DNA from: Candidatus Woesearchaeota archaeon
GTDB taxonomy: Archaea > Nanobdellota > Nanobdellia > Woesearchaeales > CALCXY01
Assembly: GCA_937906345.1 (NCBI GenBank)
Contig: CALCXY010000036.1
Location: 1-35,977, forward strand
Reading direction: 5' to 3'
Length of the DNA: 35,977 nt
Each line of letters begins with the position of its first letter. The first letter of the stretch is position 1. This document shows, piece after piece, positions 694-22,266 of the stretch. Made by a program: the position numbers and the translations under genes. The notes beneath the pieces were generated by a model, which searched no databases, was not told where the DNA came from, and saw nothing but the letters and a program-made list of their open reading frames with translations.

Positions 694-1224
694 TTATGGT
701 CTTAACCATCTCACTTCCCAGTAACTTACTTCTCCTTCTTCATCAACAACTCCAATTAAAAGCCTTTTTTTAGTAGAATGAGCTACTCTATTTTTAGCAG
801 CAAACTCTTGCCATGTGTTTCCTTCACTTTCATGAACAGGGTAAAGAATCCAACGTGCATGATCTTCTCCAGGTTTTACCCCTCTATCATATACTCTAAA
901 AACCGCACCAAATTTAAGAGCTGTTTTAACAATATAACCTCTATTTCTCATATCTTTGAATACACTATACTTAACAAAAAAGTTTGTTTGATTTTTTTTA
1001 GCTTTTTTTAACAATTTATCTGCATCAATTACTTTATTTCTTCCATCATACACTTCTAACCTTTCTTTTTCTACAAGGTAAAGCGCTTCCATTAAAGAAA
1101 GCTCAACTTTATTTTTTACTAAAGATCCATAGACTCCTTGAGTATAGAATTCTCTAGCATCATCTGAGTCTTCTGTAACAATTTTAGTATCTCTAAACAG
1201 TCCTTTTACTATTGCTTTAGGCAT
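694..1224 (-). CDS. endA: tRNA-intron (splicing) endonuclease EndA
   Basis: This enzyme cuts bulge-helix-bulge introns from archaeal pre-tRNA. At 176 residues it has the length of the homotetrameric alpha4 EndA type. The catalytic triad is visible: Tyr112 in FRVYDRGVKPGEDHARW, His122 in the same stretch, and Lys153 in STKKRLLIGVVD. Each lies three positions before its Methanocaldococcus counterpart (Y115, H125, K156). The C-terminus GEVSYWEVRWLRP is typical of the family. An ATG two codons earlier (1228-1230) is possible. I prefer 1224 because a weak TATA box lies 26 bp upstream of it. The gene is monocistronic, on the same strand as its left neighbour. Confidence 0.95.
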   Translation of the reverse strand: MPKAIVKGLFRDTKIVTEDSDDAREFYTQGVYGSLVKNKVELSLMEALYLVEKERLEVYDGRNKVIDADKLLKKAKKNQTNFFVKYSVFKDMRNRGYIVKTALKFGAVFRVYDRGVKPGEDHARWILYPVHESEGNTWQEFAAKNRVAHSTKKRLLIGVVDEEGEVSYWEVRWLRP

Positions 1225-1245
1225 ACACATTACACTTACAATATT

Positions 1246-1254
1246 GTTTAAAAA
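1246..1254 (-). promoter_or_regulatory. Weak TATA box of endA
   Basis: Minus-strand GTTTAAAAA-type AT box centred 26 bp before the ATG at 1224. It supports the internal start and a leaderless transcript. Confidence 0.4.
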
Positions 1255-1320
1255 TCTGCCTATTTTAAAAAATAACCTACAATAAGTTTCTATATAGAAA
1301 ATAATTAATCAACAAAAGGA

Positions 1321-1328
1321 TTAAATAC
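1321..1328 (+). promoter_or_regulatory. Probable TATA box of tRNase Z gene
   Basis: TTAAATAC centred about 26 bp upstream of the ATG at 1350. The box is a weak match, but the spacing fits other genes in this window. Confidence 0.4.
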
Positions 1329-1349
1329 ATTAGTTAATTTATTGTTTTT

Positions 1350-2240
1350 ATGGAATTACAATTTTTAGGAACAAGTGCAATGGTACCAACATCAAAACGA
1401 AACCATACGAGTATTTTTATTAAATATAAATCCCATAATATTTTGGTAGATTGTGGTGAAGGCACACAAAGACAATTAAAAATTGCAAAAATCCCATTAC
1501 CTTCAATTACAATGATTCTAATTACTCATTGGGATGGAGATCATATTTTAGGAATCCCAGGCTTAATCCAAAGTATAGCTGCTTCACAATATACTAAAAC
1601 CTTAAAGATCTTTGGTCCTAAAGGTACAAAAAGTTTTTATGAAAAACTTGCAAGTTTATTTAATCTCAAAAATAAAATTAAAGTAGAAGTCCAGGATGTA
1701 TCTTCTCAAAAATTCTTTGAAAATGAAGATTTTTTCTTAGAATCCTTGCCTGTTAACCATACTCAACCTTCTATTTGTTATAATTTTAATGAAAAAGATA
1801 AAAGAAAAGTTATCAAGTCAAAAATGAAAAAGTTAAAAGTGCCTCAAGGTCCTTTAATTGGAAAATTAGTAGCAAATAAATCTATTGTGGTAAATGGTAA
1901 AACAATCACCCCAAATCAAATAACAGAAATTAAGAAAGGAAAAAAGATTACTTGTGTTTTAGATACTAAAAACATTCCTTCTTTACCAAAATTTGCTAAA
2001 AACGCAGATGTATTGGTGTGTGAATCAACTTACTTATCAGATCTAGAAGATCGTGCATCAAAATATAAACATATGACTGCTTTACAAGCAGCACAAGTAG
2101 CTAAAAAAGCTAATGTAAATCAACTCATTTTAACTCATTTTAGTGCTAGATATAAAGACTCCTCTCCGTTAGAAATAGAGGCTAAATCAATTTTCAAGAA
2201 TACTAAGGCAGCAGAAGATTTTTTAAAAATTAATATTTAA
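1350..2240 (+). CDS. rnz: Ribonuclease Z (tRNase Z, 3' tRNA processing)
   Basis: A metallo-beta-lactamase-fold endonuclease that removes tRNA 3' trailers. It has 296 residues, typical of the short (ElaC) form. Visible family motifs are FLGTSAMVPTSKRN at the N-terminus, DCGEGTQRQL at 34-43, PVNHTQPS with His137, VLDTK with Asp205, CESTY plus KHMTA with His241, and LTHFSARY with His263. The core motif reads T-H60-W-D62-G-D64-H65 where the family normally has HxHxDH, so the second histidine is aspartate (codon 1533-1535). The other metal ligands are present, so an active enzyme is still likely. It is the only tRNase Z candidate here and is not in an operon. Confidence 0.93.
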   Translation: MELQFLGTSAMVPTSKRNHTSIFIKYKSHNILVDCGEGTQRQLKIAKIPLPSITMILITHWDGDHILGIPGLIQSIAASQYTKTLKIFGPKGTKSFYEKLASLFNLKNKIKVEVQDVSSQKFFENEDFFLESLPVNHTQPSICYNFNEKDKRKVIKSKMKKLKVPQGPLIGKLVANKSIVVNGKTITPNQITEIKKGKKITCVLDTKNIPSLPKFAKNADVLVCESTYLSDLEDRASKYKHMTALQAAQVAKKANVNQLILTHFSARYKDSSPLEIEAKSIFKNTKAAEDFLKINI

Positions 2241-2245
2241 CAAGT

Positions 2246-2455
2246 CTATTTTTTCGCAGCTAATTTAATATCTTCTGCTTTTACTGTTTTTCTTCCCGCA
2301 TGATTGGAAAACTGAACAGCTTTGGTAGCAATTTCTTCTGCATATAATTCAACAACCTCTTTCAATGCTGCTTTTGCTTTATCAGAAACTCTTTCAGCAC
2401 CTGATTTTTTAATAATTTTTTCCATTGCAGCCAAAGGAACTATTCTTTCCGACAT
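2246..2455 (-). CDS. Archaeal histone (HMf-like)
   Basis: A 69-residue single histone-fold protein that wraps DNA as a dimer or multimer. It starts with [20 protein letters not shown], followed by the long central helix ([20 protein letters not shown]) and the loop with [13 protein letters not shown]. No N- or C-terminal tails are present beyond the fold. Unlike most genes here it has a Shine-Dalgarno site: AGGAGG at 2461-2466, five bases before the ATG. A TATA box at 2511-2518 predicts transcription starting near 2487, so the mRNA would begin with a short hairpin (2467-2486) touching the ribosome binding site. The gene is convergent with rnz, with stop codons about 5 bp apart. Confidence 0.96.
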
Positions 2456-2466
2456 TTAAGCCTCCT

Positions 2467-2486
2467 AAACCCTTATTTTTGGGTTT
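2467..2486 (-). promoter_or_regulatory. Inverted repeat at predicted 5' end of histone mRNA
   Basis: AAACCC (2467-2472) and GGGTTT (2481-2486) are perfectly complementary with an 8-base loop. The repeat lies directly before the AGGAGG ribosome binding site and starts at the TSS predicted from the TATA box. Confidence 0.45.
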
Positions 2487-2510
2487 ACAAACTTTTTTAG
2501 CCTTTAATTT

Positions 2511-2518
2511 ATTTAAAT
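2511..2518 (-). promoter_or_regulatory. TATA box of histone gene
   Basis: ATTTAAAT in an AT-rich context. It predicts a TSS near 2487 and a leader of about 32 bases, which is unusual in this window. Confidence 0.45.
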
Positions 2519-2535
2519 CTATGGTTTTCAAAACA

Positions 2536-2542
2536 TTTAAAT
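2536..2542 (+). promoter_or_regulatory. TATA box of hjc
   Basis: TTTAAAT centred 28 bp before the ATG at 2567, consistent with a leaderless mRNA. Confidence 0.45.
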
Positions 2543-2566
2543 CCACTAAAAAGTAAAAAATAGATT

Positions 2567-2971
2567 ATGAGCAGAAAAAGTAAAGGTATAAACGCAGAAC
2601 GTGATTTAATTCATAAGTTTTGGGCAGTTAATATTCCCTCAATTAGAGTTGCTGGTTCTGGGTCAATAAAATATCCTGTTCCTGATGTCCTTGTAGGAAC
2701 TCCAAAAAATAAACTAGCTATTGAATGTAAATCAACAAAATCTCTTTATCAATATTTCACATTTGAAGAAGTGAAACAATTAATTGAATTCTCTCATTTA
2801 TTCGGAGCAACACCTTATTTAGGTGTAAAATTCAATAATAAACAATGGATTTTCCTTAAACCTGAGAATACTCCTAAGTCAAATCTACATTTTATCATAA
2901 AATCAGATAAAACCTATAAAAAAGCCCTTATTTTTGATGATTTGGTCAAAACATTGAAAGAATCATTCTAG
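2567..2971 (+). CDS. hjc: Holliday junction resolvase Hjc
   Basis: An archaeal structure-specific nuclease that resolves four-way DNA junctions in recombination and fork repair. It has 134 residues, near the normal family size. The PD-(D/E)XK active site is complete: Glu11 in KGINAERDL, Asp40 in YPVPDVLVG, and Glu53-x-Lys55 in AIECKST. The conserved Ser33 region (VAGSGSIKYP) precedes it. The mRNA is predicted to be leaderless from a TATA box at 2536-2542. The gene is divergent from the histone gene, separated by about 110 bp, and is followed by T-runs at 3017-3022 and 3036-3040 that may terminate transcription. Confidence 0.95.
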   Translation: MSRKSKGINAERDLIHKFWAVNIPSIRVAGSGSIKYPVPDVLVGTPKNKLAIECKSTKSLYQYFTFEEVKQLIEFSHLFGATPYLGVKFNNKQWIFLKPENTPKSNLHFIIKSDKTYKKALIFDDLVKTLKESF

Positions 2972-3016
2972 AGTAACAATAAATAATAATTTGTGCTTAT
3001 TTTAACAAACAAGGCA

Positions 3017-3040
3017 TTTTTTAAATCTTTTACAATTTTT
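3017..3040 (+). terminator. Possible T-run terminator after hjc
   Basis: T6 at 3017-3022 and T5 at 3036-3040, 46-70 bp downstream of the hjc stop. Archaeal RNA polymerase terminates on oligo-T without needing a hairpin. The region is AT-rich, so support is modest. Confidence 0.3.
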
Positions 3041-3136
3041 AAAAGAAAAAATAATCTAATTTTGATAAATAAACGTTTAATTAAGTTAATTTTGACAAAA
3101 TAAGACTTTTTTAACCTCTATTTTCCCAAAATAAAA

Positions 3137-3152
3137 CCGAAAGGTTTATAAA
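3137..3152 (+). promoter_or_regulatory. BRE and TATA box of tfe-prs operon
   Basis: CCGAAAGG (BRE-like, 3137-3144) followed by TTTATAAA (3145-3152). It is centred 26-27 bp before the ATG at 3175 and is one of the best promoter matches in the window. Confidence 0.7.
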
Positions 3153-3174
3153 CACTACTACCCATAATTAGGTA

Positions 3175-3759
3175 ATGGGGGGAACAATGAGAATTACCAA
3201 TAAGATTATAGAAGGAGTAGTCACTGAAGTAGCTGGCGATGAAGTAATCCCTCTTGTTAAGTATCTCAAAAATAAAAAAAATATATCTGAGTTTAAAATT
3301 GCCCAGGTTCTTAAAGCAGAAGTTAACGCTACTAGAAACATGCTTTATAGATTATATGATGCTAATTTAGTTAGTTTTATCAGAAAAAAGGATAAGAAAA
3401 AAGGTTGGTATATTTACTATTGGACTTTTAATCCTAAAACTGTAGGATTTTTAACTCAAACTATTAAAAAGAAGAGAATTGAAAGCCTAAAAGAAAGGTT
3501 AAAAAGAGAAAATCAAGGAAATTTTTACATTTGCCCTGATCAATGTATGCGCTTAGACTTTGAACAAGCTTCAAATTATGAATTTAAGTGTATGGAATGT
3601 GGAAAATTACTAGAATATGATGATAATCAAGAAACTATTTTAAATATTCAAAAAGAAATTGAAGATTTAGAGTTTGTTGAAGTTAAAAAACCTAAACCAA
3701 CCAAAAAGGTTATAAAATCTAAGAAATCTAAACCTCCTAAAAAGAGGAAAAAGAAATAA
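3175..3759 (+). CDS. tfe: Transcription factor E alpha subunit (TFE)
   Basis: The archaeal homologue of TFIIE-alpha, which binds RNA polymerase and helps open promoters. It has 194 residues: an extended winged helix (about 10-95, with LVKYLKNKKNISEFKIAQ and GWYIYYW), a basic coiled linker (98-113), and a zinc ribbon with Cys120, Cys124, Cys139 and Cys142. A lysine-rich tail (about 170-194) is unusual in length. Two starts are possible. The ATG at 3175 lies where leaderless transcription would begin. The ATG at 3187 follows a G-run. I chose 3175 from the TATA spacing. The stop overlaps the prs start by one base (TAATG), so the two genes form an operon. Confidence 0.93.
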   Translation: MGGTMRITNKIIEGVVTEVAGDEVIPLVKYLKNKKNISEFKIAQVLKAEVNATRNMLYRLYDANLVSFIRKKDKKKGWYIYYWTFNPKTVGFLTQTIKKKRIESLKERLKRENQGNFYICPDQCMRLDFEQASNYEFKCMECGKLLEYDDNQETILNIQKEIEDLEFVEVKKPKPTKKVIKSKKSKPPKKRKKK

Positions 3760-4622
3760 TGATTATTCTTGATTTAGAGGAAACTAATCTCGCTAAACAT
3801 ATAGCAACTAATCTTCGTTGTAAATATTCTAAAGTTAAAATTGATCATTTCCCTGATACTGAACATAAAATAACTATCCAAACAAATGTTAAAAATCAAT
3901 CAGTTATCCTAGTAAAATCAATTTTCCCAGCAAATGATTCTTTAATAGACTTAATTTTTACAGCATCCTATTGTAAAACCCTTGGAGCTAAAAGAATTAT
4001 CATGGTGTGCCCATATTTAGGCTATATGCGCCAAGATAAACAATTCCATAAGTATGAAGTAGTCTCAGCCCCTATTATGGCTAAACTCATAAGCACATAC
4101 GCTGATGAGCTCATTACAATTGATCCTCATCTTCATAGAATCCCTAAATTAAGTAAAATCTTCTCAATTAAAACTAAAACATTAACTGCAGTTGATTTAA
4201 TAGCCAATCACATTAAAAAAAATATTAAAGATGGAGTGATTATAGGACCAGATGGTGAATCTTACCAATGGGACATTGCAGTTGCAAAAATAACCCATTT
4301 CCCCTTCACAATTCTAAAAAAAGTAAGAAAATCCTCATATAATATTAAGATTACATTCAATGATAAAATTGATGTAAAAGGGAAAAATGTTATCATTATT
4401 GATGATGTAATAAGCACTGGAAGAACCCTTCTCAAGACAATTAACCATGTTAAATCATTTAAACCTAAAGGGATCTATTGTTTTGCTACTCATGGTGTTT
4501 TAGCAGGTGATGCAGCTTCTAAAATTGTTAAAACAGGTGCTAAATTAATTTGTACTAACACTATTCCAAATAAATATGATAAAATTGATATTTCTAAATT
4601 AATTAGTGACTCTATTAAGTAA
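3759..4622 (+). CDS. prs: Ribose-phosphate pyrophosphokinase (PRPP synthetase)
   Basis: This enzyme makes PRPP from ribose 5-phosphate and ATP for nucleotide and histidine synthesis. The 287 residues match the short archaeal class. Visible motifs are HFPDTEHKI at 30-38, PYLGYMRQDKQF at 85-96 (ATP and catalytic region), TIDPHLHRI at 120-128 (metal and ATP flag), IGPDGES at 162-168, and the PRPP-binding loop IIIDDVISTGRT at 212-223. It starts inside the tfe stop codon (TAATG), so it is probably translated by coupling. Pairing a basal transcription factor with PRPP synthesis is a gene-order observation and does not by itself imply a shared function. Confidence 0.95.
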   Translation: MIILDLEETNLAKHIATNLRCKYSKVKIDHFPDTEHKITIQTNVKNQSVILVKSIFPANDSLIDLIFTASYCKTLGAKRIIMVCPYLGYMRQDKQFHKYEVVSAPIMAKLISTYADELITIDPHLHRIPKLSKIFSIKTKTLTAVDLIANHIKKNIKDGVIIGPDGESYQWDIAVAKITHFPFTILKKVRKSSYNIKITFNDKIDVKGKNVIIIDDVISTGRTLLKTINHVKSFKPKGIYCFATHGVLAGDAASKIVKTGAKLICTNTIPNKYDKIDISKLISDSIK

Positions 4623-4662
4623 ATTATTCTGAATTAACAGTAAAATCATAAAGAATTAAATT

Positions 4663-4683
4663 AAAAAAGCAAGAATAAAAAAA
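4663..4683 (-). terminator. Double T-run terminator of the small membrane protein gene
   Basis: On the minus strand, T7 (4677-4683) immediately follows the stop codon and T6 (4663-4668) lies 8 bp further on. This is the arrangement expected of an archaeal oligo-T terminator. Confidence 0.5.
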
Positions 4684-4914
4684 TTATTTTTTACGTTTCT
4701 TTCTAGACTTTTTCTTAGGAGAACTTTTTCTTGCACCAACTTTTCTTTCAATTTTAATCTCTTCAGCCATAATTCTCTCTGCAAGTTTCTCAATATGCAT
4801 TTCTAATCGTGCAACCCTTCTCTCCATAATAACTAGAATACGTAAGCTGTAAACAATAGCAGCTAAAACACCAATGATAATCGCAAGTGTAACTTGAGTA
4901 ACATCTAAAACCAT
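4684..4914 (-). CDS. Small single-pass membrane protein with basic tail
   Basis: Unrecognised family. It has 76 residues from the ATG at 4912-4914: a hydrophobic segment of about 23 residues (TLAIIIGVLAAIVYSLRILV), a charged amphipathic stretch (RRVARLEMHIEKLAERIM) likely to form a coiled coil, then a very basic C-terminus (KKKSRKKRKK). I chose this start because GAGGTGG, a strong match to the 16S anti-Shine-Dalgarno sequence, lies four bases upstream. An upstream in-frame ATG at 4954-4956 would add 14 residues and lies near the predicted TSS, so it cannot be excluded. The basic tail would suit a cytoplasmic nucleic acid or ribosome contact (inference). Confidence 0.65.
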   Translation of the reverse strand: MVLDVTQVTLAIIIGVLAAIVYSLRILVIMERRVARLEMHIEKLAERIMAEEIKIERKVGARKSSPKKKSRKKRKK

Positions 4915-4974
4915 TTTTCCACCTCTTTTTTGGATACTCCCACTAATACTTATCATTAAATCTAGAGGTTGTAG

Positions 4975-4982
4975 TATATAAA
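4975..4982 (-). promoter_or_regulatory. TATA box of the small membrane protein gene
   Basis: TTTATATA on the minus strand predicts a TSS near 4952, giving a leader of about 38 bases before the Shine-Dalgarno-preceded ATG. Confidence 0.5.
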
Positions 4983-5016
4983 GTTTGTGTTTTTAAATAT
5001 TAATAAAAAAAATAGA

Positions 5017-5024
5017 TTTATATT
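5017..5024 (+). promoter_or_regulatory. TATA box of alpha/beta hydrolase gene
   Basis: TTTATATT centred 26-27 bp before the ATG at 5047, consistent with leaderless transcription. Confidence 0.55.
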
Positions 5025-5046
5025 CTATTATCTATAAACCTGAATC

Positions 5047-5820
5047 ATGAATAAAAAATCAATAAAATTAAACTACAAAGACACTGAAATACTAATTTCT
5101 TCAAATATTAGAGAAAATTCAGATAATTGGATCATATGTTTACATGGATTACAAACTAATAAATCAATGTATAATCCTATCTTTTCAGTTTCTGACCTTA
5201 ACAAATATTCAATCCTGGCATTAGATTTTGTGGGTTTTGGAGATTCCTCTAAACCGGAACATTTTTCATATTCTCTTGGAGATCAAACTGAAATTATTCT
5301 TAAAATAATTAAAAATATTAAACCTAAAAAATTGAATCTTATTGGACATAGTTTAGGAGGGATGATTGGAACATTATTATTAGAAAAAACAAACATTAAT
5401 TCTTTCATTAATTTAGAAGGAAATTTAATTTTTCAAGATTGTGGAGCGAGTAACGAAGTAAATCAATTAAGGTTTGATGAATTTCAACATAAATACTATC
5501 CTCAATTAAAAAAAGAACTTAAAAATTCAAAAACCTATAATGCAATATTAAGATCATCTAGTTTAGAAAAGATTCCAGATTTTGTATTTTTTAAATCTTC
5601 TCAATCAATAGTAAAATTATCAAAATCAAATCTATTAAAAAAATTTATTGAACTGCCAGATAATAAATTATATATTTATGGAGATAAAAATAAAGAAAAA
5701 ATCAATTCTTTACCCAAAAATTTTGAAACTGCTTCAATAAAAAATTCAGGACATTTTATGTTATTAGACAATCCTCAAGAGAGTTTAAAAAAAATAATAG
5801 AATTTCTTAAAAAAAATTAA
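5047..5820 (+). CDS. Alpha/beta-fold hydrolase
   Basis: A 257-residue serine hydrolase of unknown substrate. The oxyanion motif is in CLHGLQTNKSMY (31-42). The nucleophile elbow GHSLGG places Ser102. Asp213 in IYGDKN and His236 in NSGHFMLLDNP complete the catalytic triad. LDFVGFGDSSKP (59-70) is the usual loop before the lid region. No signal peptide or membrane segment is seen, so the protein is probably cytoplasmic. Esterase, lipase or peptidase activity cannot be told apart from sequence. The gene is monocistronic with a leaderless-type promoter, convergent with the TrmB-type regulator; the stops are 4 bp apart. Confidence 0.85.
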   Translation: MNKKSIKLNYKDTEILISSNIRENSDNWIICLHGLQTNKSMYNPIFSVSDLNKYSILALDFVGFGDSSKPEHFSYSLGDQTEIILKIIKNIKPKKLNLIGHSLGGMIGTLLLEKTNINSFINLEGNLIFQDCGASNEVNQLRFDEFQHKYYPQLKKELKNSKTYNAILRSSSLEKIPDFVFFKSSQSIVKLSKSNLLKKFIELPDNKLYIYGDKNKEKINSLPKNFETASIKNSGHFMLLDNPQESLKKIIEFLKKN

Positions 5821-5824
5821 AAAC

Positions 5825-6619
5825 CTATTTCAAACTTTTCCATGTTTTTTCAAACATAGTAGAGTAAGCTTCACAAAAAAATGGACTATTAACCCAAACC
5901 CCTGTGTCGTAGCTTTCATGAATCTCTTCATTGTTGCTTAACATAAAAATTACTTGGGAGTTATCAACAATACATGCTCTTGCACTTAAATCGCTTGCTT
6001 CTTTAAAATCAGATAATTCTTTAACTTTCTTTATTGCATCTGTATTTTTCTTAGTTGAAGGTGCAACAATTCTAATTTTAACACCAGAATCTTTTGCTTG
6101 TTTTAATGAAGAATATAACTTGTCTGCTTTTTTTATAATGCCTGTTTCAGTTGAAATTAAAACAACACTTTCTTTAGCATTTTTAATTGAGAATTCTAAG
6201 TGGTGATATAAGTTGTCAGTTCCTTTTAAGAATCCTGATAAATCAGTTGGTTCAACCAATTCAATCCCATTTTTATGAAGTAAATCAAGTTCTTTTAATA
6301 CTTCTGTATCTTTTAATTTATCAAGAACTTCTGCTTTCTTTTCTGCATCGTCTTGTAATTTTCTTTTTACTCTCTCTAACACTTCTGTTGGAGAAACAGC
6401 AATATATTTGATTGGCTTACCAATCTTCATGATTATGAAACCTTTCTTTTCTAATGACTCTAAAACATCATATGTTCTTGATCTTGGAACATTTGCAATA
6501 TCTGATAATTCACCAGCAGTAGAAATTCCTCTTGATAATAAAGCAGCCCATAGTTTACTTTCATAACTATTTAAGCCAAAGTCTTTTAATCTGTTTAAAA
6601 ATTCATGTTGTACTATCAT
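5825..6619 (-). CDS. TrmB-family transcriptional regulator
   Basis: A 264-residue protein with an N-terminal TrmB winged helix (about 10-75; LKDFGLNSYESKLWAALLSR, then VPRSRTYDVLESLEKKGFI), a coiled linker (about 80-115) and a C-terminal PLD-like sensor domain (VVLISTETGII, GVKIRIVAP, ARACIVDNSQVIFML). TrmB proteins usually respond to sugars or other small molecules. No sugar transporter is nearby, so the ligand is unknown. It faces away from orc1 across the putative origin. The TATA box at 6660-6667 gives a short leader, and a 9-bp inverted repeat (6676-6701) just upstream could be its operator (inference). Confidence 0.88.
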   Translation of the reverse strand: MIVQHEFLNRLKDFGLNSYESKLWAALLSRGISTAGELSDIANVPRSRTYDVLESLEKKGFIIMKIGKPIKYIAVSPTEVLERVKRKLQDDAEKKAEVLDKLKDTEVLKELDLLHKNGIELVEPTDLSGFLKGTDNLYHHLEFSIKNAKESVVLISTETGIIKKADKLYSSLKQAKDSGVKIRIVAPSTKKNTDAIKKVKELSDFKEASDLSARACIVDNSQVIFMLSNNEEIHESYDTGVWVNSPFFCEAYSTMFEKTWKSLK

Positions 6620-6659
6620 CGTTTAAACCCCCAACTACATATTGCAAATACCACAATCA

Positions 6660-6667
6660 TATATAAA
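6660..6667 (-). promoter_or_regulatory. TATA box of the TrmB-type regulator
   Basis: TTTATATA on the minus strand, followed by a predicted leader of about 18 bases to the ATG at 6619. Confidence 0.5.
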
Positions 6668-6675
6668 CCTTTCTA

Positions 6676-6701
6676 TTTTTGTTATTCAAAAGTAACAAAA
6701 A
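6676..6701. promoter_or_regulatory. 9-bp inverted repeat upstream of TrmB-type gene
   Basis: TTTTTGTTA (6676-6684) and TAACAAAAA (6693-6701) are perfect complements with an 8-bp spacer. The repeat lies directly upstream of the TATA box of the regulator and beside the putative origin. It is a candidate operator or origin accessory site. Confidence 0.4.
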
Positions 6702-6841
6702 AAACAAAGTCACATACCACCCCCTAATTTCCTTTGGAATATCCTTTAATTTTAGAAGGTTTGTGTTTATTTATTTTCTATATAGTAATAATAATAATTA
6801 ATATAATAATAATTATTTATTATACCATATTTTCCACATGA

Positions 6842-17364: not shown

Positions 17365-17511
17365 CTATTGAGTGGTTAAGTTACATTAAGTATGTAAGTG
17401 ATGATACTGGCGCCGATGACCTGCTATCTCACGAAGAGAAGTAGCAAAACCGGCCCTGGCCCAGTATCATCACCCCAACACACAATAGGTAACTTAACCG
17501 CCCTATTGAGT
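17365..17511. mobile_element. MITE-like palindromic element with 9-bp target duplication
   Basis: The 9-mer CTATTGAGT occurs at 17365-17373 and again at 17503-17511. Between the copies, terminal inverted repeats GGTTAAGTTAC (17374-17384) and GTAACTTAACC (17489-17499) enclose a second, inner 13-bp perfect inverted repeat, GTGATGATACTGG (17398-17410) and CCAGTATCATCAC (17461-17473). The core is GC-rich (33 of 60 bases at 17401-17460), unlike the AT-rich surroundings. There is no internal gene. Direct repeats around terminal inverted repeats are the mark of transposition, so this may be a non-autonomous insertion element. The alternative is a structured RNA gene. The left repeat abuts the inverted repeat exactly; the right leaves a GCC gap. 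Confidence 0.5.
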
Positions 17512-19533
17512 AGAAATAATTTGATCTTCTCTACTTCCATCTCTATATACAGTTATACCTTTACATTTAAGTTTGAATGCTAAGAGACATGCATCTTCCA
17601 CATCTTTGATAGAAGCATTATAAGGAAAGTTAATTGTTTTAGAGATTGCATTATCTACATATTTTTGAAATGCACTTTGAATTCGAATATGCCATTCTGG
17701 TGAGATATCATGCGCAGTCACAAATATTTTTTTAAGATGATCAGGAATCTCTTCAATATCATGAATACTTCCTGTTGATGTGATTTTTCTCATTAAATCA
17801 GATGAATAAATTCCAATTTGCTTGGCAAGTTTTTCAAAAACAGGATTAATATACAATATTTCTCCTGCAGCTACTGTTCTTCGATAATATCCTAATGCAA
17901 AATGAGGTTCTATTCCTCCAGAAGTATTTGCAATAATTCCCCTTGCACCACAAGGGGAAATAGTAGTTAAGGTAGCATTCCTTTTCTTGATTTTATGAAC
18001 TCCATAAATACTCTTTTCCCAATAAGGAAAATTTCCTTTTTTTTCAGCAAGCATACTTGAAGTTTTATGGGCATGACTTTGAATAAAACTCATAACTTTT
18101 TCAGCTATTTTAAGAGCTTGTCTAGAATTATAAGGAATTCCTAATGAATAAAGCATATCTGCAAAACCTAAAATCCCCAACCCTACATTTCTTAATCCTA
18201 AAGTATTTCGTTTAAATCCATTGATAGGAAATTTAGTTACATCTATTACATTATCTAAAAATCTAACTGCTATAGGAATAATTGCTTTAAGTTTTGCCCA
18301 ATTTATGTTATTATCCTGTACAAAATTTGCTAAGTTAATAGCTCCATAAGAAACCCCTGTATAAGGAAGTAACGGCTGATCTCCACAAGGATCTGTTGTT
18401 TCAAAATCCCCTAAAGTTTTATGAGGATTGTTTTTATTGATTGTGTCAATAAATAGAATTCCTGGATCGCCGTATTTCCAAGCCATTGTAATAAGTAAAT
18501 CAAATACCTTGCGTGCATTAAGTGTGTCTACTTCTTCTTTCGTAGAAGGATCTATCAAAGGATAATCAGCATTTTTTAATACAGCTCTCATAAAATTATC
18601 AGTAATTTCAACACTAACATTGAAGTTAGGGAGAGCATGATTGGTTTTAGCAGTTATAAAATCTAAAATATCAGGATGCTCAACAGATAAACTTCCCATA
18701 TTTGCTCCTTTTCGTTGTCCAGAAACAGATATTAGTCGTGAAGAGTGGTCAAAAAGATTCATAAAAGCTATAGGACCTGATGCTTTCCTATTAACAAATG
18801 CAGTTTGTTTTCCTCTCTTTCTCAATTTTGAAAAAGAAAATCCTACTCCTCCCCCATATCTTTTAATAATACTTGAATCATATAATGCCTTAAATATTTC
18901 TTTAGTAGAATCTCCTAGAGGCACTACAAAACTGCTTAAGAGCTGATTATTATTTGTGCCTGCACTTGCAAGTATTCTTCCTGAAGGGATAAAATCCAAT
19001 TCAGCCATTGCATTATAAAATTTTCCTTGCCAAAATTTAATTTTAGCCTTATCAACATATTTTTTTTCTGCAGAAGCAATATTTTTAGCAACTCGTTGAA
19101 ACATTTCAAGAGGAGATTCAACAACAATTCCTTGTTTGTCTTTTAGAAGGTATCTTTGTTTTGCAATTAATACAGCATTTGGAGATAATTTTGAGGTATC
19201 TACTAACCCTAATATATCTTCTTTTTGTTTTCGAAGATCAGTTCTTTCTTGTCTATAAAGAATGTAAGCTTTAGCCACTTTAGTAAGATTTTGATTAATT
19301 AATACTTGTTCTACTACATCTTGAATATCTTCTATAGTAGGTGCTGTATCTTCATCATAGGTTTGATTAAGAATTTCTATAACTTTCGAAGCTGTTTCTT
19401 GGGCAATAAGTTTATCTGGCTCACCAATAGAGATAGTTGCTTTAAATACTGCTCTATAAATACGTTTTTCATCAAAATTAACTACATCTCCTTCTCTTTT
19501 GATAATACTTTGTATTCTATTAACAGTCTCCAT
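17503..19533 (-). CDS. Divergent class II ribonucleotide reductase paralogue with ATP-cone
   Basis: 676 residues: an N-terminal ATP-cone (about 5-100) and a full RNR ten-stranded barrel. The barrel retains KYGGGTGF-type, RKGANMGSLSVEHPD and SGGIEPHFALGYYRR motifs, so homology to class II NrdJ is clear. Key residues differ. The first redox cysteine is Ser201 (LLSSFVVPLGDS). The active-site NPCGE reads D381-P-C383-G-D385. The second redox cysteine is Val394 (YTGVSYGAINL). The phosphate-binding PTGT loop reads P527-C-G-A. Only the thiyl cysteine position (Cys383) is kept. It may be a regulatory or altered-function partner of the canonical NrdJ encoded upstream. It has its own TATA box and probably a leaderless start. 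Confidence 0.88.
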   Translation of the reverse strand: METVNRIQSIIKREGDVVNFDEKRIYRAVFKATISIGEPDKLIAQETASKVIEILNQTYDEDTAPTIEDIQDVVEQVLINQNLTKVAKAYILYRQERTDLRKQKEDILGLVDTSKLSPNAVLIAKQRYLLKDKQGIVVESPLEMFQRVAKNIASAEKKYVDKAKIKFWQGKFYNAMAELDFIPSGRILASAGTNNNQLLSSFVVPLGDSTKEIFKALYDSSIIKRYGGGVGFSFSKLRKRGKQTAFVNRKASGPIAFMNLFDHSSRLISVSGQRKGANMGSLSVEHPDILDFITAKTNHALPNFNVSVEITDNFMRAVLKNADYPLIDPSTKEEVDTLNARKVFDLLITMAWKYGDPGILFIDTINKNNPHKTLGDFETTDPCGDQPLLPYTGVSYGAINLANFVQDNNINWAKLKAIIPIAVRFLDNVIDVTKFPINGFKRNTLGLRNVGLGILGFADMLYSLGIPYNSRQALKIAEKVMSFIQSHAHKTSSMLAEKKGNFPYWEKSIYGVHKIKKRNATLTTISPCGARGIIANTSGGIEPHFALGYYRRTVAAGEILYINPVFEKLAKQIGIYSSDLMRKITSTGSIHDIEEIPDHLKKIFVTAHDISPEWHIRIQSAFQKYVDNAISKTINFPYNASIKDVEDACLLAFKLKCKGITVYRDGSREDQIISTQ

Positions 19534-19557: not shown

Positions 19558-19563
19558 TTTAAA
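19558..19563 (-). promoter_or_regulatory. TATA-like box of the RNR paralogue gene
   Basis: TTTAAA on the minus strand, centred 26-27 bp before the ATG at 19533. The paralogue may be transcribed independently of the upstream nrdJ. Confidence 0.45.
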
Positions 19564-19596: not shown

Positions 19597-22266
19597 TTAT
19601 TCAGAACAACTTTTAACTAACTGTCCATTAACCATTTCTACTTTACATACTTTTGGACCATTTGCATCAGTATCTTTATCTGTTTTAAGAGTTTTTTTAA
19701 CTTCATTTATTTTTTTAGTTACAGTTACTCCTTTTATATTATTTTCAAATGCATGAAATGGAGTACTTAAAATTCCTTTAGGAGTTGTAAAAACTTCATC
19801 TCCTTTAAGTGTTTTAGGTTCTTCTCCATCTATTTGCACAGTAAAAAGCAAATCTTTAGATTTTTGGAATTTATTTTGTTGAGTTTGCACACTAAGAATA
19901 GGATGTCTACTTCCATCTCTATAAATAGTGATCCCTTTTAGTCCTTTTTTCCAGGCTTGTATGTAAATATTACTTATAGTTTCAGGATCAACACTCTCAG
20001 GAAGATTTACCGTAGATGAAATACTATGATCAATATACTCTTGTGCAATTCCTTGAATCTCTACTCTACTTTCAGGTTTAATATGATGAGCTGTTCTAAA
20101 AAAATGATCAGGTAATAAGGATTTTAAATCTTCTGCATCATCTATTTTTTGTGCTTCTTCTAATTTTCCTTCTTTATCGAGATACGCTTGAACAGTTGAA
20201 TGAAATACTTTGAATATTTTATTTCCAAAAGATTCTGACCTTCTTGAATAAAATAATGCAAAAATAGGTTCTATTCCTCCACTAACTCCTACATAATGTT
20301 TTCCCCCATTAACAAATCCTAATACTACATTTGATATGGTTCCAGTAGGTGCTATAGAAAGAAGTGCAATATTTCTCAATCCTTTTTCTTTAATCAAGGC
20401 TCGAGTTTCATCATCAAGACTTTCTTTAAAGAAAGGATTCTCTTTATATTTTTCATAATCCCATAAAGGGCTAGGTGATTTTTCTTCAGAAAGATTAGCA
20501 GACGCACGATAAGCATGGTTGCCAATAAATTCACTCACCTTTTTTAATAATTCTTTAGCTTTTTCAGAATCATATGCTAAACCTAATTGATTAAACATAT
20601 CCGCTATACCCATAATTCCTAATCCTAATCTCCTAGTATCACTAGCAGATTTTCTTTGTTTTTCTAATGGATTTAGGGTTTCATTCCATAATACCACATT
20701 ATCTAAGAATCGTATAACCTCTAAAGTAACTTCTTGAAGTTTATTCCAATCAATTGTTGCATTTTCACTATACCCATTTTTAACAAACCGTGAAAGATTA
20801 ATACTTCCTAAATTACAAGCCCCTCCATCTTCAAGAGGAACTTCTCCACAAGGATTGGTTGAGAGAATAGGTTTTCCAACATAATCGCTTGGAGAATATT
20901 TTTTCATTCTACTCCAAAGAATAAGTCCTGGTTCAGCAGTTTGATAGTTACCTGCAACAAACGGATCCCATAAATCTCTTCCTTTTACTAATTCTTTGAT
21001 CTCTCCAACATTTTTAGATTTAAAATAAAGCATAAAATCTCCAGATTTTTTAACAGCCAAATCAAAATCTTCTTTTTCTAAATTAATAAGATAATCTCCA
21101 AAGTTATCTCTATTATTTTTATCTGAAAGAATTTCTTCAGTAACACTAGCATCAAATTGTTCAAAAAAAGCATTAAGTGAGTCTATGGTATCAAAAGTTC
21201 CTAATAATTCATAATCTTCAATGTTTTTTGAAGGAATTTCATATGCATAATGCACATCTTCTTTGTTCAGATTTAGTGATTGTTCAACTTTTTTCAATTT
21301 TTTATAAACTAGAATTTTCTCTTTTCCATAAGTTGTTTGCTCATATACAGATTGCATAAACTCATCAGTTACTTTTAGAGAAATATTAGCAAATCTCACT
21401 TGAGTATTTTCTCGAACTTGTTTTTCTATGACCTCTAATTGTGCTTCATCAAACTTATTGGACCATCTACATTGTTCTGTTATTTGTTTAGTAACCCAAT
21501 TACTTTGCTTTTTTACATGAATAAAATTAAAAACATCAGGATGTTTAACATCTATAGTTAACATAAGTGCTCCTCTTCTCCCTGATTGACCAATAAGTCC
21601 TGTTGTGAGAGAATATACTTCCATAAAAGAAACAGCCCCAGTAGAATGATCCGCTGCATTATGCACAACAGAGTTCTTAGGTCTTAATACACTAATGTCA
21701 ACGCCAATGCCTCCTCCGTAAGAGTAGGTTCTTGCGCATTCGTATGCTGCTTTGTATATAGATTCAATATTATCTTTTTCAATTGTGCTAACAAAACAAT
21801 TAGCTAATGTTTTTAATCTATAGAGATCTCCTGCCCCTGCTAAAACTCTTCCACCTGGTAAAAAATATCCTTGATAAAGAAGGTCATAAAACTTTTTGGC
21901 ATAAATATTTTGATTTTCCTCAGTATCTTCTACTGATGCAATATACGCTGCTAACCTTCTAAATACTTGTTCTGGTTTAGATTCAATATATTTATTGGAT
22001 AAATCTTTTAATAAATATTTTTTCTTATAAATATCGTGAGCTAGTTCACTATTCCCCAAATAATCTTTTTTATGGACTGGAACCTCTCCAGATTCTTGCC
22101 ATTTTTTTATTAAATAGAATAATCGTTTGTATGCAACAATTTTTGACTCAGGCATTAAAGAAAATAATTTGCTTTTATGTGCAAACATATCTTCAAAATC
22201 TTTATTATTATCAGAAAGTTGGGGAGCGAGGTCACCCTTGTTGAGTTCAGTAGGTTTGCTTAACAT
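19597..22266 (-). CDS. nrdJ: Adenosylcobalamin-dependent (class II) ribonucleotide reductase
   Basis: Reduces ribonucleotides to deoxyribonucleotides with vitamin B12 radical chemistry. It has 889 residues and all catalytic features: Cys157 in LANCFVS, N471-P-C473-G-E475, Cys484 in GGACNLGSINL, and the phosphate loop APTGTIS. Cys874 and Cys887 near the C-terminus could relay reducing power. There is an insertion between about 305 and 430, and no N-terminal ATP-cone is visible; the cone is present only on the neighbouring paralogue. The promoter is at 22328-22335. The leader of about 39 bases begins with an inverted repeat (22286-22304) and has AGAAGGCGAT as a ribosome binding site. The gene is followed after 63 bp by the paralogue. 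Confidence 0.95.
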   Translation of the reverse strand: MLSKPTELNKGDLAPQLSDNNKDFEDMFAHKSKLFSLMPESKIVAYKRLFYLIKKWQESGEVPVHKKDYLGNSELAHDIYKKKYLLKDLSNKYIESKPEQVFRRLAAYIASVEDTEENQNIYAKKFYDLLYQGYFLPGGRVLAGAGDLYRLKTLANCFVSTIEKDNIESIYKAAYECARTYSYGGGIGVDISVLRPKNSVVHNAADHSTGAVSFMEVYSLTTGLIGQSGRRGALMLTIDVKHPDVFNFIHVKKQSNWVTKQITEQCRWSNKFDEAQLEVIEKQVRENTQVRFANISLKVTDEFMQSVYEQTTYGKEKILVYKKLKKVEQSLNLNKEDVHYAYEIPSKNIEDYELLGTFDTIDSLNAFFEQFDASVTEEILSDKNNRDNFGDYLINLEKEDFDLAVKKSGDFMLYFKSKNVGEIKELVKGRDLWDPFVAGNYQTAEPGLILWSRMKKYSPSDYVGKPILSTNPCGEVPLEDGGACNLGSINLSRFVKNGYSENATIDWNKLQEVTLEVIRFLDNVVLWNETLNPLEKQRKSASDTRRLGLGIMGIADMFNQLGLAYDSEKAKELLKKVSEFIGNHAYRASANLSEEKSPSPLWDYEKYKENPFFKESLDDETRALIKEKGLRNIALLSIAPTGTISNVVLGFVNGGKHYVGVSGGIEPIFALFYSRRSESFGNKIFKVFHSTVQAYLDKEGKLEEAQKIDDAEDLKSLLPDHFFRTAHHIKPESRVEIQGIAQEYIDHSISSTVNLPESVDPETISNIYIQAWKKGLKGITIYRDGSRHPILSVQTQQNKFQKSKDLLFTVQIDGEEPKTLKGDEVFTTPKGILSTPFHAFENNIKGVTVTKKINEVKKTLKTDKDTDANGPKVCKVEMVNGQLVKSCSE

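Follow-up and report, generated by a model that had tools for sequence, protein, structure and literature searches.

A tailless class II ribonucleotide reductase paralogue of a Woesearchaeota archaeon lacks the redox cysteine pair and keeps the thiyl cysteine

Gene locus and domain composition

Two ribonucleotide reductase (RNR) genes lie side by side in the window (the whole 35,977-nucleotide stretch of DNA that was analysed), which also harbors genes for a Hef nuclease and a TrmB-type regulator, in line with a DPANN-type archaeon. One of them encodes P0001, a polypeptide of 676 amino acids (Table 1). The Pfam scan of P0001 gave an ATP-cone, an all-alpha Ribonuc_red_lgN domain and a complete RNR barrel (PF02867, 382 bits), and nothing beyond the ATP-cone and class I/II RNR domains. 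An earlier sequence-only reading of this DNA had described the barrel as intact and the gene as free of frameshifts, and both statements are borne out, the latter by an open frame with no internal stop. Among the NCBIfam models, P0001 passes the cut-off of TIGR02504 (adenosylcobalamin-dependent RNR) alone, with 599 bits against a cut-off of 400. The AlphaFold model is confident (pLDDT 88.5) and has Thermotoga maritima NrdJ as its best match, AdoCbl complexes included (Foldseek ranks 1-21), with a TM score of about 0.82 by target length and 35% identity (1XJE/3O0O). The barrel, the all-alpha domain, the homology and a finger-loop thiyl cysteine place P0001 in the class II RNR (NrdJ) family.

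Table 1. Features of the P0001/P0002 locus, in positions of the window
Feature	Position	Strand	Remarks
P0001	17503..19533	-	Tailless, ATP-cone-bearing class II (AdoCbl) RNR paralogue without redox cysteine pair, 676 aa
ATP-cone of P0001 (res. 9-98)	19240..19509	-	Pfam PF03477, 69 bits
P183-S-G-R186	18976..18987	-	Apical phosphate loop, triphosphate-type motif; meaning of motif from PMC8365446
S201	18931..18933	-	Redox cysteine 1 position (T. maritima C134), by alignment
Loop 2 region (res. 265-276)	18706..18741	-	Substrate/effector loop; conserved K, Q and G gone, R275K
D381-P-C383-G-D385	18379..18393	-	Finger loop with thiyl cysteine (T. maritima N320-P-C322-G-E324), by alignment
V394	18352..18354	-	Redox cysteine 2 position (T. 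maritima C333), by alignment
P527-C-G-A-R531	17941..17955	-	Altered PTGTI loop; R531 invariant across the DPCGD clade
Putative archaeal box A	19558..19563	-	TTTAAA, about 27 nt before the P0001 ATG; read from the sequence
P0002 (nrdJ)	19597..22266	-	Partner of P0001, 889 aa; canonical redox pair, NPCGE, C-terminal cysteine tail, no ATP-cone, triphosphate-type P-G-G-R
Hairpin	17370..17500	-	Between P0001 and the next gene

The gene for P0002 lies upstream of P0001 on the same strand, with 63 bp between them, and encodes an intact NrdJ (C/NPCGE/C) with a tail ending ...VCKVEMVNGQLVKSCSE. An intact promoter for P0001, as claimed earlier, is plausible from the nucleotide sequence, and a leaderless start is possible. 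The other side of P0001 is taken up by a long near-perfect hairpin (-68.3 kcal/mol, z -9.5) that has no Rfam match; two further copies in the same genome (C25 and C71, with 85% and 78% identity) point to a MITE-like element dispersed through the genome or to a structured RNA present in several copies. The genome (G000) contains a third RNR-like piece, a class I NrdA-like fragment beside a primase-like ORF, on a contig (C123, L005) that is probably phage DNA within the assembly. NrdD and adenosyltransferases of the BtuR and PduO types were not found in this 77%-complete assembly.

Close homologues that share the finger loop of P0001 (the DPCGD clade, see below) have a corrinoid adenosyltransferase gene directly downstream. 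It is of the BtuR type in G043, G052 and G002, the last of which carries the sister protein SACAE, and of the unrelated PduO type in family f63 (L124-L127), where the genes follow the operon-like order nrdJ, DPCGD paralogue, PduO-type adenosyltransferase, thymidylate synthase and DHFR. Because canonical nrdJ genes of the order also adjoin adenosyltransferase genes, this adjacency, which may be inherited, indicates a B12/dNTP setting and no specific function, and its value as function-specific evidence is weakened. G052 and G043 encode their tailed NrdJ on a different contig from the DPCGD gene, and the G052 partner has its own ATP-cone.

Active-site residues

Functional positions were mapped by aligning P0001 with T. 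maritima NrdJ and more than 100 homologues. The alignment agrees in every residue with the earlier description of a redox pair changed to Ser201 and Val394, of NPCGE changed to DPCGD and of PTGT changed to PCGA, the last (res. 527-530) corresponding to PTGS 490-493 of T. maritima; the thiyl cysteine is retained as C383, which aligns with T. maritima C322. That description had missed that the C-terminal redox cysteines are also gone and that the apical phosphate loop reads P-S-G-R. No cysteine occurs past residue 657, a tail domain is absent, and the protein ends in REDQIISTQ. In those NrdJ enzymes that have been characterised, this loop reads P-N-S-P if the substrate is a diphosphate and P-(A/S)-G-R if it is a triphosphate (PMC8365446). 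Loop 2, which relays the identity of the effector to the substrate base (PMC3267527), has S269 and V270 at the positions of T. maritima K202 and Q203. The conserved residues lost in P0001 cluster at the redox pair, the finger loop and loop 2. Judged from the alignment, D381, D385 and the PTGT loop would line the active site.

P0001 thus departs from the motifs of a class II RNR enzyme. Its finger loop is not of the NXCXE type, NPCXE being present in 3175 of 3347 class II sequences (PMC9669993), and it lacks the redox pair, the second and third cysteines that a review describes as present "in all class I and II" RNRs (PMC4390871). It also has neither a C-terminal relay nor a separate NrdJb-like subunit; class II C-termini without cysteines are on record (PMC9669993). 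The glycyl radical domain and the MGCR/MCCR finger loop of class III (formate-type) RNRs are likewise missing, the finger loop being DPCGD and the Pfam scan having given only the ATP-cone and class I/II domains. The tail of P0002 would be of no help to P0001, because P0001 has no disulfide to reduce. The fold, the operon context and the thiyl cysteine are compatible with AdoCbl binding and homolysis, as far as the sequence and the predicted model go.

The DPCGD clade

Eight DPCGD proteins, P0001 included, were found, from seven genomes in four families of one order and from one further contig. A codon-level pattern for TDPCGDQ matched 7 of the 353 genomes of the order and, among 371 genomes sampled in the phylum, none from another order. 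A contig titled Heimdallarchaeota (L036) carries a DPCGD member with 68-70% identity to family f63, near the mutual identity of the f63 members, and may be mis-binned. The tailed partner on this contig (1-843) is interrupted in frame by a stop codon that leaves ORFs 1-429 and 433-843, which is either a sequencing error or a damaged gene. A viral source of the clade was rejected, as all 21 IMG/VR relatives have cysteine tails and none has the DPCGD motif.

The clade is monophyletic (ultrafast bootstrap 97, SH-aLRT 93; mixture model, motif columns removed), and the allied tailless proteins SACAE and SACGE group with it at 95/93. All ten proteins possess the triphosphate-type phosphate loop (P-S/G-G-R in the DPCGD clade). 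Its members have twelve residues in common that never vary among them and are rare (<5%) in tailed NrdJ: A124, G185, R186, I187, R225, K275, S281, E309, D381, D385, A398 and R531, of which G185 and R186 recur in the P0002 type and are not unique to the clade. The number of such residues had a mean of 0.02 and a maximum of 1 in 151 sets of eight neighbouring tailed proteins each, sets which are somewhat more alike (66% identity vs 58%) and not true clades. Counted by clade node, the DPCGD clade has 10 and purely tailed canonical clades have 0-3.

The sequence-only reading had asked whether the altered residues are invariant, and the answer differs between positions. D381 and D385 are invariant, as is C383, whereas the first redox position is Ser in five and Cys in three members, the second is V, G or S in seven and Cys in one (L126), and PCGA occurs in P0001 alone. 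Both redox cysteines are kept in L126 and one each in L123 and L129, from which it follows that the clade was DPCGD and tailless before the pair was lost, and that erosion of the pair took place within it on several occasions.

Tailless NrdJ paralogues of the order

A protein was classified as tailless when fewer than 60 residues followed its barrel and none of them was a cysteine. In the fetched loci of the order (Woesearchaeota-type archaea; most sequences are from metagenome-assembled genomes) 65 such paralogues were counted, one of them perhaps truncated by a contig end. The thiyl cysteine is kept in all 65, whereas the first redox cysteine is lost in 17, the second in 25, and the finger-loop Asn is replaced in 35; at the acidic position of this loop 57 have E, 7 have D and 1 has Q. 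A tree of 148 rows, computed with the motif columns left out, shows 0 changes in the thiyl column as compared to 14 in the redox pair, 12 in the Asn and 14 in the tail, and at least 7 of the 14 tail changes are forced by well-supported branches. Tailless NrdJ arose several times independently, beside differing types of tailed partner: P0002-like proteins, proteins that bear PF08471 (in some cases also a TSCPD tail) and the NPCAE type found in family f63. One tree suggested that a single ancestor had been split, with the cone going to one half and the tail to the other, which the mixture model did not resolve. Both redox cysteines are present (C/NQCGE/C) in 17 of the 25 tailless paralogues of family f62.

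Of the 38 same-strand pairs within the fetched stretches, 37 have the tailed NrdJ upstream, with gaps that range from an overlap to about 3 kb. Exactly one ATP-cone is found in 35 of the 38 pairs, two in 3 and none in 0, these pair counts not being independent. The cone is absent from the tailed partner in 28/38 pairs as compared to 9/59 solo tailed NrdJ, 50 of which possess it (Fisher p=8e-9, uncorrected for kinship).

Possible function of P0001

P0001 probably does a different job from that of its partner and is not simply decaying. The protein retains the barrel, the thiyl cysteine C383, an acidic residue (D385) at the general-base position, the ATP-cone and a triphosphate-type phosphate loop. 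Missing are the redox pair, the C-terminal cysteine relay and those conserved residues of loop 2 that read the base. Since the parts that start the reaction are kept and those that reduce and select are lost, the simplest reading is that a thiyl radical is still made or used. That P0001 is an AdoCbl-type RNR paralogue which kept the radical-initiating half of the machinery and gave up the reducing half appears to us a close call, a little short of even. In its most likely form, judged from sequence comparison, the protein would be radical-competent, would no longer use the dithiol reduction step and would act beside a tailed NrdJ. Counted in favor of this are the thiyl cysteine in all 65 tailless paralogues with no change on the tree, the retained acidic residue, the monophyly and the clade-specific residues of the DPCGD proteins, the purifying selection on them, the confident AlphaFold model, the adenosyltransferase genes directly downstream in the clade, the location of the tailed NrdJ on another contig in G052 and G043, and the triphosphate-type loop in all clade members. 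The absence of an adenosyltransferase from the 77%-complete assembly of this genome speaks against it, and canonical nrdJ genes have the same kind of neighbour.

In the proposed mechanism, cleavage of AdoCbl would generate a thiyl radical on C383, which would take a hydrogen atom from a nucleotide or nucleotide-like ligand in a re-worked site formed by D381, D385, R531, K275 and E309. The reaction would proceed without a dithiol step, either as redox-neutral chemistry or with another donor, in the dNTP/B12 gene neighbourhood of the tailed NrdJ and possibly in a mixed complex with it. We suggest more tentatively that P0001 may be a new AdoCbl-dependent thiyl-radical enzyme on the RNR barrel, derived from a Woesearchaeota-type class II RNR and catalyzing non-reductive or non-dithiol NTP chemistry. 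The thiyl cysteine could also be kept for packing of the cofactor and not for chemistry.

The pairing data fit a different role, in which P0001 is a regulatory or structural alpha' subunit of a mixed complex that lends its ATP-cone to P0002, its own active site being disused. The upstream tailed NrdJ, the single cone per pair, the missing cone of so many tailed partners and the several independent origins of tailless proteins beside differing partners all argue for such a subunit; cone complementarity and tandem placement fit it at least as well as they fit a radical enzyme. Loop 2 of P0001 is degenerate, and class II RNRs are known to pass electrons from one subunit to another and to form higher oligomers (PMC5704485). 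However, universal retention of the thiyl cysteine is not expected of a dead subunit, nor is a set of new invariant residues at or near the active site, which were partly placed there by alignment. The genes are moreover on separate contigs in G052 and G043, the former with a cone on the partner, and P0001 seems to have its own promoter (the putative box A). We consider a disused subunit possible and somewhat doubtful. Radical chemistry and an alpha' role are not exclusive, and all the observations can be accommodated if P0001 is a radical-competent alpha' within a mixed oligomer. It is improbable that P0001 is a true ribonucleotide reductase supplied by a different electron donor, be it formate-like or the thiols of a partner acting in trans. 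Many tailless paralogues, including most of those in family f62, keep both redox cysteines, so that a partner tail could reduce them in trans, a reaction shown for class II RNR (PMC5704485), and class III RNRs use formate and a single extra cysteine (PMC4390871); but such a tail would find neither redox cysteine in P0001, the bottom-face cysteine is retained in class III enzymes of the formate type, whose finger loop is MGCR (PMC9669993), and in P0001 both N and E of this loop are replaced.

Decay of a duplicate that is heading for loss would agree with the faster evolution of P0001 as compared to canonical NrdJ (end branch 0.5 vs a median near 0.2-0.26) and with its PCGA and loop 2 changes, which are private or variable. 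Against it stand eight divergent clade members with open frames and 12 new invariant residues, and the substitution rates. dS is saturated, and dN/dS where estimable within the clade is 0.085-0.29, which is not the value near 1 named earlier as a sign of decay; when the same pairs of genomes are compared, the DPCGD members have a dN about 1.1-1.4 times as high as their tailed partners. Purifying selection on the DPCGD proteins is similar to that on the partner enzyme, and the earlier proposal that P0001 is under selection for something holds. Close homologues with standard cysteines had been named as another sign of local decay; one exists (L126), yet it is also DPCGD and tailless, so it does not indicate local decay of a working reductase. 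Local decay is rejected on these data and progressive loss of the gene is highly improbable. The sequence-only reading had listed a regulatory pseudoenzyme, a reductase with another donor and a radical enzyme with a different substrate; the evidence does not single out one of the three, and an ordinary dithiol reductase is least compatible with the data.

Comparison with known systems

The closest solved fold is that of the dimeric class II enzyme T. maritima NrdJ, which has the barrel, the thiyl cysteine and the effector region in common with P0001 and differs by its C134/C333 redox pair, by N320, E324 and K202/Q203 of loop 2, by a PNSP diphosphate loop and by the lack of an ATP-cone. Like P0001, NrdJa of Pseudomonas aeruginosa is a catalytic barrel without C-terminal cysteines of its own whose gene lies beside that of a second subunit, but it has a working reductase site and makes dNTPs, and NrdJb consists of a cysteine-rich tail only, with no second barrel (PMC4520616). 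The P0001/P0002 pair is not a split enzyme of this kind, as P0001 lacks the redox pair and its neighbour is a full RNR. In the NrdJd pairs of Frankia and some Alphaproteobacteria, only one copy has the cysteine-rich domain and tailless copies occur only alongside a tailed NrdJ; unlike for P0001 and P0002, the accessible part of that source reports no loss of active-site cysteines and no ATP-cone complementarity (PMC5704485). The betaherpesvirus proteins HCMV UL45, MCMV M45 and their HHV-6B counterpart are RNR large-subunit homologues that lost nucleotide reduction and were repurposed, but these are viral, serve immune evasion and have no radical role described in the accessible parts of the sources.

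No description of the DPCGD clade, or of repeated loss of the redox pair with the thiyl cysteine kept, was found in the open-access literature. A set of class II paralogues that lost the redox pair repeatedly and the radical cysteine never contrasts with the statement on all class I and II RNRs cited above (PMC4390871). These tailless paralogues are usually found beside an intact RNR, with ATP-cone and cysteine tail often divided between the two proteins. Use of the radical would make P0001 an RNR-fold enzyme with new chemistry; without such use, the pair would be a cellular two-barrel RNR with regulation on a separate subunit.

Other arrangements of RNR genes were observed in the order. In families f62 and f2 (e.g. 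L131, L188, L192, L134 and L137) very long tailed NrdJ proteins of 1072-1471 amino acids, with PF08471 in those scanned and apparently an intein in the longest, are encoded before a tailless archaeal-type NrdJ, which looks like a bacterial-type NrdJd next to the resident gene. Locus L132 (G085, 944-6746) harbors three tandem RNR genes, all without a cysteine tail (C/NLCGE/C, C/NPCGE/C and C/NPCGE/C).
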